From assembly GCA_015058945.1 (NCBI GenBank), contig SVBF01000001.1, positions 1 through 64,000 on the forward strand: a stretch of 64,000 bases of DNA, read 5' to 3'. The position numbers and the translations under genes were made by a program. This stretch comes from Erysipelotrichaceae bacterium (GTDB lineage: Bacteria; Bacillota_I; Bacilli_A; RFN20; CAG-826). Below, in pieces: positions 216-4,868 of this stretch. The notes below the pieces were generated by a model. That model ran no database searches, was not told the DNA's origin, and saw only the letters and a list, made by a program, of their open reading frames with translations. Within the stretch, counting starts at the first letter, position 1. Every line of letters begins with the position of its first letter.

Positions 216-1934
216 ATGAAAGCCAAAGTCTTTTTAGGAATACGGATCGCGGGCACGGTCTTAGCGTTTTTCAACTTGCTCATGTTCTTCGCGTTGCGCC
301 CTTGTTGGAGCGGGATCAGCAGCACGCTCGGATATAAGGGCGGGTCCAACACATTCTTGTTGGTCTTGCCGATCATCGTCTGCGTGCTGCTCTTCGTGAT
401 CCTGCTTTGCGACCTGATTCTTAAGAAGATCTTCAAGAAGGATTGGCTGCAGATACTCTTCTTAGCCATCCATGTCGTCTTCTTCGCCGCCATCATGGTC
501 GTGATCGGGTTAGGGGCGGTAGACTACATGCGCTTTGTCTGGCCGAAGTTCTTTACCGGCTTAGCCGCGGTCATCGCGTTGGTACTGCTCTATTTCTTGC
601 TCTTCGTCTATCCGAAGACGAGGCTCAAGGATCTCAAGGTCTTCAAATATGGCGTGTTAGGGGTCGCCGCCGTTTTGGCGGTGGGGGTGCTTGCGAACTT
701 CACCTTCAACTGGATCACCTGCAGCCCAGTGGTCTATGCGGTGGGGGACAAATATCAGATCGTCTTCTCCACCAGCGTCGACGCGACGGGTTACGTCGAA
801 ATCGGCGGGACGAAGTATTACGACACCTATAACGGCACGACCCGAACCTTTGACCGCATCCATAAGATCGAGGTGCCGATGGAGAAACTCGACGCGAGCA
901 AAAAGTACACGGTCCATACCCAAAAATCGATCTATTGCGGTCCTTTCGGCGGCTTCTTGGGACGAGACATTAGCCAAAGTGTGGACTTCAAACCGGTCGA
1001 TGTGACCGATGGCATCCAATATCTTTCCTTCAGCGATATTCACATGAACCTCGCTCAGGCGGCGAAGACGGCCACGTTCGTGGAGAACTATGATTTCCTC
1101 GTCCTCGCCGGCGACATCATCTCTGACGTCGAGACCTTTGAGGACGCGAACTTCAACAACGAAGTCGCCCACGCGATCACCAAAGGCCAGATCCCCGTCG
1201 TCTATGCCCGCGGCAACCATGACATCAAAGGGCGGTTCGGCCAAGAGCTCCACAAATTCGTCGGGGCGGAGGGCGATCGTTTCTATTACACCTTCTACTT
1301 CAAAGACATCTACGGCATCGTCCTCGACCTCGGCGAGGACCATGACGACGATTGGTGGGAATATTACGGCACCGCCCATTACGCGGATTACCACGAAGCC
1401 CAGATCGAATTCCTAAAGGAAGAGATCGCGAAGAAGGATTACGAACATTATCCCTATCGCGTCGCGATCTCCCATATCCCGATCCCGTTCGTGAACTACC
1501 GCCTGAACCACGAATACGTCAAAAAGACCATGACGACCTTGTTAAATCAGATGGATATCGACATGTACCTCTGCGGCCATCAACATCAACTGATGATCTT
1601 CGAGCCGGGGCTCATCGAACCGTTCACGGAGCTCTCCTACAATCCGAACTACAAGAACAAGAAATACGGCGGCTACCTCACCGACTTCAACTTCCCTTCA
1701 TTCATGGTGAGCAAACAGGGTTTCACCTTTAAAGACGCCACGAACATCACCGGGGCAAAGAGCCATATCGGTTTCTACGTCGACGTGGATTTAAGCGTGA
1801 ACGAGGAACGTTGCCATTACCTTAATAGCGCGGGCGAGAAAGTCGACGTGATGAACATGTTCTACGATAAGGCCTACGGCCAAGAGATCCGCATCGATTT
1901 GACCACGAAGGAGTTTTTGCCCCAAAACGCATAA
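216..1934 (+). CDS. Membrane-anchored calcineurin-like metallophosphoesterase
   Basis: Predicted phosphoesterase of the calcineurin-like fold, 572 residues. About five hydrophobic segments fill residues 5-167, followed by an outward or cytoplasmic catalytic domain. The metal-binding motifs appear in order: SDIH near residue 273, GDI near 298, GNHD near 332, SHIP near 418 and GHQHQ near 452. The start has a clear RBS (GGAGG, 7 nt, ATG) and a TATAAT -10 box at 176-181. The substrate is unknown; a second, lipoprotein phosphoesterase occurs further on. The domain call is secure and the physiological role is not. Confidence 0.88.
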   Translation: MKAKVFLGIRIAGTVLAFFNLLMFFALRPCWSGISSTLGYKGGSNTFLLVLPIIVCVLLFVILLCDLILKKIFKKDWLQILFLAIHVVFFAAIMVVIGLGAVDYMRFVWPKFFTGLAAVIALVLLYFLLFVYPKTRLKDLKVFKYGVLGVAAVLAVGVLANFTFNWITCSPVVYAVGDKYQIVFSTSVDATGYVEIGGTKYYDTYNGTTRTFDRIHKIEVPMEKLDASKKYTVHTQKSIYCGPFGGFLGRDISQSVDFKPVDVTDGIQYLSFSDIHMNLAQAAKTATFVENYDFLVLAGDIISDVETFEDANFNNEVAHAITKGQIPVVYARGNHDIKGRFGQELHKFVGAEGDRFYYTFYFKDIYGIVLDLGEDHDDDWWEYYGTAHYADYHEAQIEFLKEEIAKKDYEHYPYRVAISHIPIPFVNYRLNHEYVKKTMTTLLNQMDIDMYLCGHQHQLMIFEPGLIEPFTELSYNPNYKNKKYGGYLTDFNFPSFMVSKQGFTFKDATNITGAKSHIGFYVDVDLSVNEERCHYLNSAGEKVDVMNMFYDKAYGQEIRIDLTTKEFLPQNA

Positions 1935-1938
1935 GGAA

Positions 1939-1959
1939 AACCGCCCATTAAGGACGGTT
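1939..1959 (-). terminator. Terminator of the double-glycine peptide gene
   Basis: AACCGCCC/GGACGGTT forms an 8-bp stem with one mismatch. On the minus strand it is followed by TTTTCCTT, so it fits the end of the minus-strand peptide gene that runs towards it. Confidence 0.5.
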
Positions 1960-1976: not shown

Positions 1977-2198
1977 TCAGGACTCGATTTTGCGATGTCC
2001 ATCGTCCTTGTCTTTGTCTTTGTTCTTGTCATCATCACCGCCGCATCCGCCGCCATTGACCGCGGCGAGCTGCTCGTCGCTAAGCTCGACGTGCTGCGCC
2101 TTGGCGAGGCGGAGAAGGTCGTTCACGTTGTCGCAATCGCGGACTTTTGCGATCTGTTCGGGGGTGAGACCTTTGAGCAATTCCTGCTTGACGTTCAT
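1977..2198 (-). CDS. Double-glycine (Nif11-like) leader peptide, RiPP/bacteriocin-like precursor
   Basis: A 73-residue peptide whose first 50 residues look like a Nif11-type leader. An amphipathic helical region with LLRLAKAQ is followed by LSDEQLAAVNGG, the classic double-glycine cleavage site of C39-peptidase transporters. The remaining core (about 23 residues) starts GCGG, has a single Cys and is an Asp/Lys-rich low-complexity stretch ending DGHRKIES. The start has an excellent RBS (GGAGG, 7 nt, ATG) and there is a terminator after the stop. No modifying enzyme or peptidase transporter is present in the window, so any processing would be in trans. It could instead be a secreted signal or a metal-binding peptide. 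Confidence 0.75.
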   Translation of the reverse strand: MNVKQELLKGLTPEQIAKVRDCDNVNDLLRLAKAQHVELSDEQLAAVNGGGCGGDDDKNKDKDKDDGHRKIES

Positions 2199-2445
2199 GA
2201 TGTTTCCTCCTTCGTCTTGGCATCATCATACAAGACCCATAGTCACAGAGTTGTCACACATTAGGACAAAAATGAAAAAATCAAAAACGACGATGAAAGC
2301 AACGGGCCTCGAACGAACGATACTCGAATCGCCGCGCTCGTCTATTCGCTTACGCGGAAAGATGGGGAAGAACCAAAGGCGAAAGAATAGAAGCGGTGGC
2401 TTTGCCACCCCATTTTCGCGTATCACGCCTAACGCGTGCAGTTGA

Positions 2446-2495: not shown

Positions 2496-4868
2496 ATGAA
2501 AAGAAACAAAGCATTGCTCATTCTTGCCGCTTCGTTTTTGCTCGTCTCCTGTGGCGAGGCGCCTGCCTCTTCCGCCGTTTCGTCCTCGGAAGAAGTCAGT
2601 AGCAGCGAAGAGGGCTCCAAAGAGATCGAAGGACTCGTCCGCAAGAACATCGAGGTCCGGATGGTCTCGCATTTCGGCGACGAGTTCGGCGAAAGCGAAT
2701 TCACCGACACTGCCCTTTATAGTGACTATTGGTTCCTCGACGATTCCAAAGAGGTCAACTATGAACTCGCGTTGATGTCCTCGATGGTCGATGGCGCCTC
2801 CTATGCCTCATCGAAGGAATCTCACGGCGAGAAGATCATCGAATTCCTCGACGATGCCGGATACCATGGCATTCAGCTTAACGAATATTACGACAAAGGG
2901 CTCTTCCTCGAAGATTCCATGGGCGCGATCATCGGCCGCAAGTCCATCAAGGACTATGACGGCAAAGAATACACTCTCCTCGCCGTCTTCCCCCGCAACG
3001 CCGGATATCACGACGAGTGGATGGGCGACTTCAACCTCGGCGCGGAAGGGATTCACGAAGACTTCCTCGAGATCCGCGACGAAACGCTTCGCTTCATGAA
3101 GCGCTACATCGCCGACAATGGCATCACCGGCGAACTCAAGGTTTGGAGCGCCGGCTATAGCAGGGGCGCCGCCACCGCCAACCTCCTCGGCGCCTTCCTC
3201 GCGGAGGACGTCGGCTATTTCGGCGATGACGTGAGTCTCGATCCCGAAAACCTCTTCGTCTATACCATCGCCACCCCGGCCGTCGCCCCTTCCGACCTAA
3301 ACAAGACTGAACTACTAAGTGTTTCCGGACCTCGTGGCGCGGGTTTTCACGACACCGATACCCCCGCCTTCGTCTATGCGGGCGAAGGCAAAGTCAACTT
3401 CGCCGATGAGCGCTACAAAGCCATCCATAACTTCGTCGGCGTCGGCGACTATGTCACGAAACTCCCGCCGCAAAACTGGAACTTCACCCGCTTTGGCGTG
3501 ACCGAGAACATACTCTATGGCAGCGAGGCGTTCCTCAAAAACCTCGAAAAGCTTAGCCCAGAGACCGCGGATACCTTCATCGGCGGCAAGAATTACGAGA
3601 CCGAACTGCCGAACAAGACCTTCGACATCGAGACCTGCACCATCGTCGATGTTGATTCCAAGCAATCCGCCAACGCGATGATCGACGAACGCCTGGCCAT
3701 CCTCATGGGCCTCGCCGGATCGCGCGAAGGCTACATCGAGAAAGGCTTTGATCGCCTTCTCGGCGGCGCGGCCGCGATCTTCGGCACCGATTGGAAAGGC
3801 TTCTTCGACGGCATCAAGGAAAACATCGGCGCCGCGGTGAAAGCCGGCATCCTCAATTACCTCGCCTATGCCCAAAAACAGTCGGGGTTAAGCGAAGCCA
3901 AGACCGCCGCCACGATCCTTAAGTCTCTCTTCGCCAAACAAGACGTCGCGCTCGACGCCTATACCGATCAGCAATTCCTCGCCGACTTCCTCGATTTCCT
4001 CATCAACGACTATCAGCAAGGCGGCAAGGCCTCGACGCGCGCTACCGTCCTTTCCGTCCTCATCCCCGCGCCCTATGGCAAGCTCTACATGGACTTGTTG
4101 AACTTCGCGAAGGACAATCAGATCACCGTGAAGACCGTCGACGAAGTCGTCTTGCTCCTCGCCAAGTTCGTCAGTGCGAACAAGACGGACGAGAACGTCA
4201 TCGCGCTGATCGAGGCCCTCGCCAAAGCGATTCCCTCGCAATACGCCTCCTTCCTTCCGATGATCGCTTCGGGGATCGGCAAGGATTACAGCGACCCCAC
4301 CCTCTACCCGGACGATTTCTCCAAGACTAAGGCGGCGATCGTCGACATCCTCGACGCCTGCGCTAACGGCGTCGACACGGAGGAGACGAAAATGAGTGCT
4401 TCCTACCTCCGCTATATGCTGATCAACATGGTCGGGACGTTTGCCTTCTCTGGAAAACAACACCTCATCGATCTGCTCGCCAACGGCACCCACGAAACCG
4501 ACGATACCACGGTGACCCGCGACCCCGTCGCCCTTGACCTGCTCCTCGAAGACGTCCTCGACCTCACTCTCCCTAAAGATAGCGAAGGCAAGCGCGTTCC
4601 CTTGAATAAGGCCGCCGACGATAGCCTCGTCGCTCTCCTCGATAAGGGCAGGACCGAGATCAACGGCATCTACGTCGATATCCTCAAACAGAGCCCGGAG
4701 ACGGTGCGCGAAATCATCTTCACCGTGTTATGCAACCCGGGCGAGAACTACGATGTCCGTCACGACATCGAAAGCGCCGTGACCTTCATCGACAAGATGC
4801 AGTTCCTCTTCCCCGCGCATAGCCACGAGATGTATATGTGCTACCTGAAGACGCAGATCAAAGCCTAA
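2496..4868 (+). CDS. Large lipoprotein with lipase/alpha-beta hydrolase motif
   Basis: A 790-residue lipoprotein. The signal peptide ends in the lipobox LVSC with Cys at residue 19, followed by a Ser/Glu-rich linker. Near residue 218 the sequence GYSRGA matches the nucleophile elbow GxSxG of lipases (class 3-like and related alpha/beta hydrolases), preceded by a predicted beta strand (LKVWSA). The last 400 residues are mostly helical and unrecognised. ATG at 2496 is chosen because it follows GAGGT and starts a proper signal sequence. It is probably a cell-surface lipid or ester hydrolase; the other catalytic residues could not be assigned by eye. Confidence 0.8.
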   Translation: MKRNKALLILAASFLLVSCGEAPASSAVSSSEEVSSSEEGSKEIEGLVRKNIEVRMVSHFGDEFGESEFTDTALYSDYWFLDDSKEVNYELALMSSMVDGASYASSKESHGEKIIEFLDDAGYHGIQLNEYYDKGLFLEDSMGAIIGRKSIKDYDGKEYTLLAVFPRNAGYHDEWMGDFNLGAEGIHEDFLEIRDETLRFMKRYIADNGITGELKVWSAGYSRGAATANLLGAFLAEDVGYFGDDVSLDPENLFVYTIATPAVAPSDLNKTELLSVSGPRGAGFHDTDTPAFVYAGEGKVNFADERYKAIHNFVGVGDYVTKLPPQNWNFTRFGVTENILYGSEAFLKNLEKLSPETADTFIGGKNYETELPNKTFDIETCTIVDVDSKQSANAMIDERLAILMGLAGSREGYIEKGFDRLLGGAAAIFGTDWKGFFDGIKENIGAAVKAGILNYLAYAQKQSGLSEAKTAATILKSLFAKQDVALDAYTDQQFLADFLDFLINDYQQGGKASTRATVLSVLIPAPYGKLYMDLLNFAKDNQITVKTVDEVVLLLAKFVSANKTDENVIALIEALAKAIPSQYASFLPMIASGIGKDYSDPTLYPDDFSKTKAAIVDILDACANGVDTEETKMSASYLRYMLINMVGTFAFSGKQHLIDLLANGTHETDDTTVTRDPVALDLLLEDVLDLTLPKDSEGKRVPLNKAADDSLVALLDKGRTEINGIYVDILKQSPETVREIIFTVLCNPGENYDVRHDIESAVTFIDKMQFLFPAHSHEMYMCYLKTQIKA

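Follow-up and report, generated by a model that had tools for sequence, protein, structure and literature searches.

Streptococcal regulons of the Blp/Com type combine a C39 exporter with double-glycine precursors that are scattered over the genome and placed under two-component control via a promoter direct repeat. All three traits recur in the system described here, whereas its regulator is OmpR/PhoB-like, a radical SAM gene is present, the effectors are zinc-ribbon peptides, and genomes that lack the peptide can still have the kinase and regulator. Radical SAM/SPASM maturases of RiPPs such as SkfB, PapB, and ScmE share with the maturase of this system a radical SAM core, a SPASM region, and an N-terminal extension, SkfB being the nearest by sequence; unlike them, the maturase scores far below the NCBIfam cut-offs and its substrate has a single core Cys. 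A third point of reference is NHLM export, which acts on precursors with NHLP or Nif11 leaders (Haft et al. 2010, PMC2887384). NHLM systems resemble ours in their ABC pair, one member of which has a C39 peptidase (best matches TIGR03796 and TIGR03797), in an HlyD-like protein, in double-glycine leaders, and in that each genome encodes numerous paralogous precursors whose cores vary. In contrast, the leader studied here is short (~50 aa) and lies under the TIGR03793 and TIGR03798 cut-offs, the HlyD-like protein has only 128-137 aa, the maturase is a radical SAM/SPASM enzyme rather than a cyclodehydratase or LanM, and the cluster adds histidine kinase and response regulator, HipA-like kinase, STAS, and SpoIIE-type genes.

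The peptide gene lies in the window, by which we mean the whole stretch of 64,000 nucleotides analysed. It probably represents an orphan-copy precursor of an NHLM-like, radical-SAM-associated double-glycine system, with maturation and export taking place in trans and expression belonging to a regulon under two-component control. The peptide would work like an NHLM-type exported precursor, although it falls outside strict NHLP, Nif11, or NHLM membership. No published description of the cluster was found among titles and opening abstracts outside the subscription literature, and this switch-controlled family of secreted peptides appears to be undescribed. An apparently orphan small ORF is now tied to a promoter box, to a regulon, and to a defined cluster for maturation and export, which makes each step testable.

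The precursor gene, its leader, and its relatives

The first-pass annotation described a double-glycine leader peptide with a single-Cys core, and the ORF of 73 aa is built in this way: its leader ends in LSDEQLAAVNGG, its core has one Cys, and homologues exist in the same genome. The features of the gene are as follows.

1977-2198, minus strand: precursor peptide gene, 73 aa, ATG to TGA (from sequence, paralogues, and dN/dS)
2049-2198, minus strand: double-glycine leader of 50 codons with Val-4, Leu-7, and Leu-12, the C39 recognition positions of PMC6363468 (from sequence)
1980-2048, minus strand: core GCGGDDDKNKDKDKDDGHRKIES, 23 residues, with Cys52 invariant in 23/23 aligned relatives (from sequence and alignment)
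2242-2258, minus strand: direct repeat TGTGAC-N5-TGTGAC, proposed response-regulator box, 60 bp 5' of the ATG (from pattern scan)
2225-2230, minus strand: TATGAT, possible -10 element, 11 bp past the box (inferred on reading the sequence)
2206-2212, minus strand: ribosome-binding site AAGGAGG; AAGACGAAGGAGGAAACA is common to both paralogues (from reading the sequence)
1937-1958, minus strand: terminator-like hairpin ACCGTCC...GGGCGGTTTT, with a similar one in both paralogues (from reading the sequence)

The source genome (20 contigs totalling 1.46 Mb at 92% completeness, with the window on contig C12) was searched for homologous leaders, and this search returned two full-length paralogues, at 71% identity on C5 (L002, adjoining the export cluster) and 68% on C20, together with a C16 homologue that shares the leader only and has a zinc-ribbon core. 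Between the window ORF and L002, dN is 0.21 and dS 0.64 (dN/dS about 0.33), third codon positions account for 26 of the 51 nucleotide differences, and the core alone has a dN of 0.26 and a dS of 1.12. The promoter direct repeat, AAGGAGG, and a hairpin-plus-T terminator are common to the window ORF and its paralogues. On these comparisons, the ORF is a genuine, conserved gene under mild purifying selection. The idea that the ORF and its core are a piece of a larger intracellular protein was ruled out, as the gene has a start, a ribosome-binding site, a stop, and a terminator to itself. It could also be supposed that duplication left the window copy behind without a function, as leader positions kept elsewhere are altered here and extra short-core copies occur in no other genome among the matches listed. 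However, the dN/dS ratio, the core values, and the intact box, ribosome-binding site, and terminator all speak against decay, which we consider improbable. The altered positions give LRLAKAQH in the window leader versus LQLAKDEG, and because of this departure a weaker recognition of the window leader is possible. The gene is flanked by a calcineurin-like phosphoesterase with N-terminal hydrophobic segments (window 216-1934, plus strand) and by a lipoprotein with a Lipase_3 domain (window 2496-4868, plus strand), neither of which has an evident link to the peptide.

The leader had been called clearly Nif11/GG-type, and of this assignment the double-glycine half stands. Its Val, Leu, and Leu before Gly-Gly fit the substrate pattern of C39 (PCAT/AMS) peptidases, which has hydrophobic residues at -4, -7, and -12, the positions that sit in the C39 groove according to PMC6363468. 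The Nif11 half is put too strongly, as a search with TIGR03798, the Nif11 model, gave no match to the window ORF at E<=10 and hence none above the curated cut-off. The same model weakly matches 11/23 related short-core precursors (best 6.3e-5), one relative scoring 13.5 bits against a cut-off of 32.3. Nor did the window ORF match the NHLP model TIGR03793, for which L002 reached 17.4 bits against a cut-off of 50.9 and 15/23 relatives match at E<=1. Class II bacteriocin models likewise stayed below their cut-offs (TIGR03949 / PF10439, 13.6 vs 21.5 and 14 vs 27.1 bits), and Pfam and NCBIfam gave double-glycine or bacteriocin-leader matches to the window ORF only below threshold. We regard Nif11 as only a weak family resemblance.

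Matches at E<=0.01 were present in the genomes of 16 of 60 relatives, or 17 of 61 with the source genome included. Applied to 15,583 ORFs of the loci analysed, a leader profile picked out 121 unique precursors, of which 92 have zinc-ribbon-like cores, 28 have short cores, and 1 is of another kind, and up to 32 leader matches occur in one genome (G030) among the matches listed. Short cores have a mean length of 17.7 aa, with polar or charged residues making up 74% and hydrophobic ones 12.5%, the composition set comprising 26 of the 28 and omitting L136, which is without Cys, and L017, which is cut by a contig end. The C-terminal motif [RK]..[IFY][DE][SDK] is found in 19/25 short cores, and a leader signature of the short class is carried by 24/26 short precursors versus 0/92 zinc-ribbon precursors. 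A Cys at +1 to +3 behind the Gly-Gly is nevertheless a trait of both classes (27/28 short and 88/92 zinc-ribbon cores), and in 81 of the 92 zinc-ribbon cores it is extra to the ribbon Cys. Zinc-ribbon cores with the same double-glycine leader often stand in tandem arrays (L004:1378-1662 on the minus strand, L036-L047, L099, and L145).

These alignments also bear on the proposal of a metal-chelating peptide of a new kind. A secreted peptide that binds metal through an Asp/Lys-rich core would suit the window core, which has an Asp run, a Cys, and a His. However, the Asp/Lys run is the least conserved stretch of the family cores and forms their variable linker, the His is not kept either, and related cores mix acidic and basic residues; what is kept is the Cys right behind the Gly-Gly and a C-terminus that is usually [RK]K[IF][DE]S. 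Chelation was rejected on account of the unconserved acidic run and seems to us highly improbable.

The putative maturation and export cluster

The observation that neither a maturase nor a transporter is encoded in the window proved correct, as radical SAM and C39 ABC matches lie on contig C5 only. The accompanying suggestion of an orphan substrate processed in trans agrees with the rest of the genome, in which a genome-wide search found one C39 transporter gene (C5:101003-103117) and which also has a radical SAM/SPASM gene (C5:94396-95787), both within a cluster spanning C5:93056-104528. The absence of any C39 transporter, named beforehand as a ground for refutation, therefore does not apply. 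The same-strand cluster comprises genes for a deoxyribosyltransferase-like protein, a 130-aa HlyD-like protein, the C39-peptidase ABC protein, a second ABC protein, STAS, a SpoIIE-type phosphatase, the response regulator, the radical SAM/SPASM enzyme, and the histidine kinase. The first ABC protein matches TIGR03796 best, at 836 bits against a cut-off of 853 that was exceeded in 0/37 genomes, and the second TIGR03797, at 622 against 709 bits. By these equivalog cut-offs the pair lies outside NHLM, though both models are the best match. The HlyD-like protein matches TIGR03794 over its first ~50 positions only, and not over its full length (22.8 vs 156.2 bits).

The radical SAM enzyme of the source genome is 74% identical to the copy in G034. 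This kind of maturase has a CNLNCLHC motif, a SPASM region, and an N-terminal extension of ~85 aa. Its best PDB sequence match is SkfB (6efn), and all NCBIfam maturase models fall far under their cut-offs (best 105 bits vs 500). The pairing of a radical SAM/SPASM maturase with a precursor, as defined for sactipeptides and ranthipeptides, is found within this genome and, in relatives, as direct adjacency to short-core precursors. More specifically, a short-core peptide adjoins the radical SAM gene in eight other genomes (G005, G034, G002, G018, G012, G027, G020, and G030), in seven of which the C39 ABC gene belongs to the same cluster, while G030 carries its ABC pair on a separate contig. The usual order is kinase, regulator, HipA-like, peptide, radical SAM, HlyD-like, ABC, ABC, STAS, SpoIIE. 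It recurs among the 70 loci that the radical SAM alignment picked out of 84,980 species genomes. Most of these loci belong to MAGs labelled Erysipelotrichaceae, Bacillales, Bacilli, Lachnospiraceae, or Clostridia, and the titles of many refer to the ruminant gut.

Across 37 genomes, the radical SAM gene is present in 15/17 with leader genes versus 1/20 without (p=2e-7) and the first ABC gene in 14/17 versus 1/20, p values in this analysis overstating independence, as the loci are related and kinship is uncorrected. The leaderless exception, G011, has cluster fragments on a short contig. All short-core genomes (11/11 in a hand-assigned set, among the matches listed) possess the radical SAM enzyme, and modification of the precursor by it is therefore plausible; we put its chances at about even. 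Zinc-ribbon-only clusters, which exist with and without radical SAM, show that the enzyme does not go with short cores alone.

We propose that the window ORF is a stand-alone extra copy served by the C5 machinery. Both the radical SAM/SPASM enzyme and the ABC exporter's C39 peptidase would read its leader, and the peptidase would cut after Gly-Gly to release a very hydrophilic peptide of ~23 aa. The likeliest site of modification would be the invariant Cys beside the cleavage site. Because the leader retains the three C39 recognition residues, the peptide is most likely exported in trans via the C5 transporter, and we consider such processing and export probable.

A HipA-fold kinase-like protein is encoded in most clusters (L043:7496-8692 on the minus strand, with 18 aligned relatives). 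Its model has a pLDDT of 89.4, and its best Foldseek match is HipA 4pu5 (E 1e-7). No such gene was found in the source genome at E<=0.01, and thus it is not needed for the explanation given here.

The promoter box and its proposed regulator

OmpR/PhoB-type regulators bind direct repeats with 11-bp spacing. The best matches of the cluster's regulator model (pLDDT 79.5) are full-length regulators of this type, and an earlier assignment to the SARP type was dropped for this reason. A box TGTKRC-N5-TGTKRC with at most one mismatch precedes 20/29 short-core and 34/90 zinc-ribbon genes (shuffled expectation 0.0 and 0.3) and was not found 5' of the other 9/29 and 56/90, in a survey that skipped precursors with <90 bp upstream and counted one truncated 'other' precursor (L042) among the 29. 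In most box-bearing genes it stands ~60 bp before the ATG. The copy at 2242-2258 is the sole exact one in the 64 kb.

In the source genome, TGTGRC-N5-TGTGRC matches 6 sites exactly and 12 with one mismatch, whereas the reversed pattern gives 5. All 6 exact sites are in front of genes, the window ORF among them. On reading the 18 sites, 13 were placed 46-68 bp and one ~87 bp before a start codon, and four were without promoter context. Promoter-placed boxes precede all three short-core genes, a nucleotidyltransferase-like gene with the zinc-ribbon peptide downstream of it, several proteins of ~360-860 aa, and two secreted-type proteins. Over 37 genomes, 105 exact sites compare with 5 for the reversed pattern, and the box is present in 13/14 genomes with the response regulator versus 5/23 without it (p=2.9e-5; counts entered by hand, with G029, whose regulator has 40% identity, counted as without).

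The histidine kinase and its OmpR-type partner would switch the window gene on through this promoter repeat, to which the regulator is predicted to bind. Through such boxes, the cluster's own precursor copy, a zinc-ribbon peptide, and various further genes would be activated along with it.

Box-preceded proteins of ~360-860 aa are also encoded at L005:12795-15120, L090:3754-13456, and L092:2622-10489, several beginning MPKLTKEEL...YVSMADY. Most are without a Pfam match, and one (760 aa) has weak PI3/PI4-kinase and Fam20C matches. In G036, which belongs to another genus (L167-L171), kinase and regulator are accompanied by five boxes, some before lipoprotein or secreted-type genes, and by no peptide or exporter.

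Possible roles outside the cell

Outside the cell, the released product would more likely be a communication or accessory peptide than a membrane-killing bacteriocin. As predicted roles, a signal is possible but doubtful and an antagonist slightly less likely, while some other function comes closer to, but does not reach, an even chance. More specifically, the mature peptide could be an autoinducer that is sensed by the membrane histidine kinase of the cluster, with positive feedback and induction of the zinc-ribbon peptides in the manner of Blp/Com. The order kinase, regulator, peptide, exporter in many clusters, the box at the peptide gene, and the short, hydrophilic core are in keeping with such a pheromone, as is the link of short cores to two-component genes near radical SAM loci (10/12 vs 4/20, p=8e-4, in 32 of 61 loci with at least 2.3 kb upstream and C39 present, the 61 drawn from the 70). 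However, a sensor dedicated to the peptide should occur only with it or covary with it, and neither pattern was found. G021 and G036 have kinase, regulator, and box, yet neither a peptide nor a radical SAM gene was detected there; the three also occur in G003 and G016, in which short-core peptides were not observed. The sensor half of the kinase is well kept (mean 56% vs 62% for the kinase half) while cores vary, and sensor and core show no covariation (rho 0.24, p 0.22, 28 pairs). The regulator and the short core co-occur in 9/12 versus 2/5 of 17 leader-bearing genomes (p=0.28), short-core genomes in this and the covariation test being assigned by hand among the matches listed. Moreover, a single kinase in G000 stands against three precursor copies that have two different cores. 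The pheromone was given up as the leading reading after the peptide-free kinase, regulator, and box of G021 and G036 and the failed covariation, and we now consider it unlikely.

A modified small peptide could also be secreted to inhibit competing bacteria, co-expressed with the zinc-ribbon peptides as an arsenal. Leader, exporter, and regulation are held in common with large and diverse zinc-ribbon double-glycine families, and NHLM exporters are tied to microcin-like precursors in PMC2887384. Against this, the polar composition of the short cores is unlike that of membrane-active bacteriocins, and no immunity gene was recognised adjoining the orphan copy, so that antagonism of this kind seems less likely still.

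More tentatively, we hypothesize that one radical SAM/C39 machine serves two peptide classes through one leader, a short, charged, single-Cys 'key' and an expanding, secreted zinc-ribbon arsenal, with a two-component switch acting via the 11-bp direct repeat. The window ORF would then be a second, diverged 'key' and the extra Cys, carried by nearly all zinc-ribbon peptides, a shared modification site. It is possible, with the same reserve, that the gut Bacilli of ruminants here make a class of radical SAM natural product that is as yet undescribed. Should the common leader indeed send a charged single-Cys peptide and dozens of zinc-ribbon peptides via one enzyme and exporter, the substrate range would be unusual, and ruminant-gut bacteria would possess a large, apparently undescribed repertoire of secreted peptides. 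Finally, we note that a radical SAM/ABC cluster with a zinc-ribbon peptide is present in MAGs labelled archaeal (L116 and L121; Methanomethylophilaceae and Thermoplasmata). The Thermoplasmata-labelled contig with the cluster comprises 224,558 bases, and these contigs may reflect either transfer or mis-binning.
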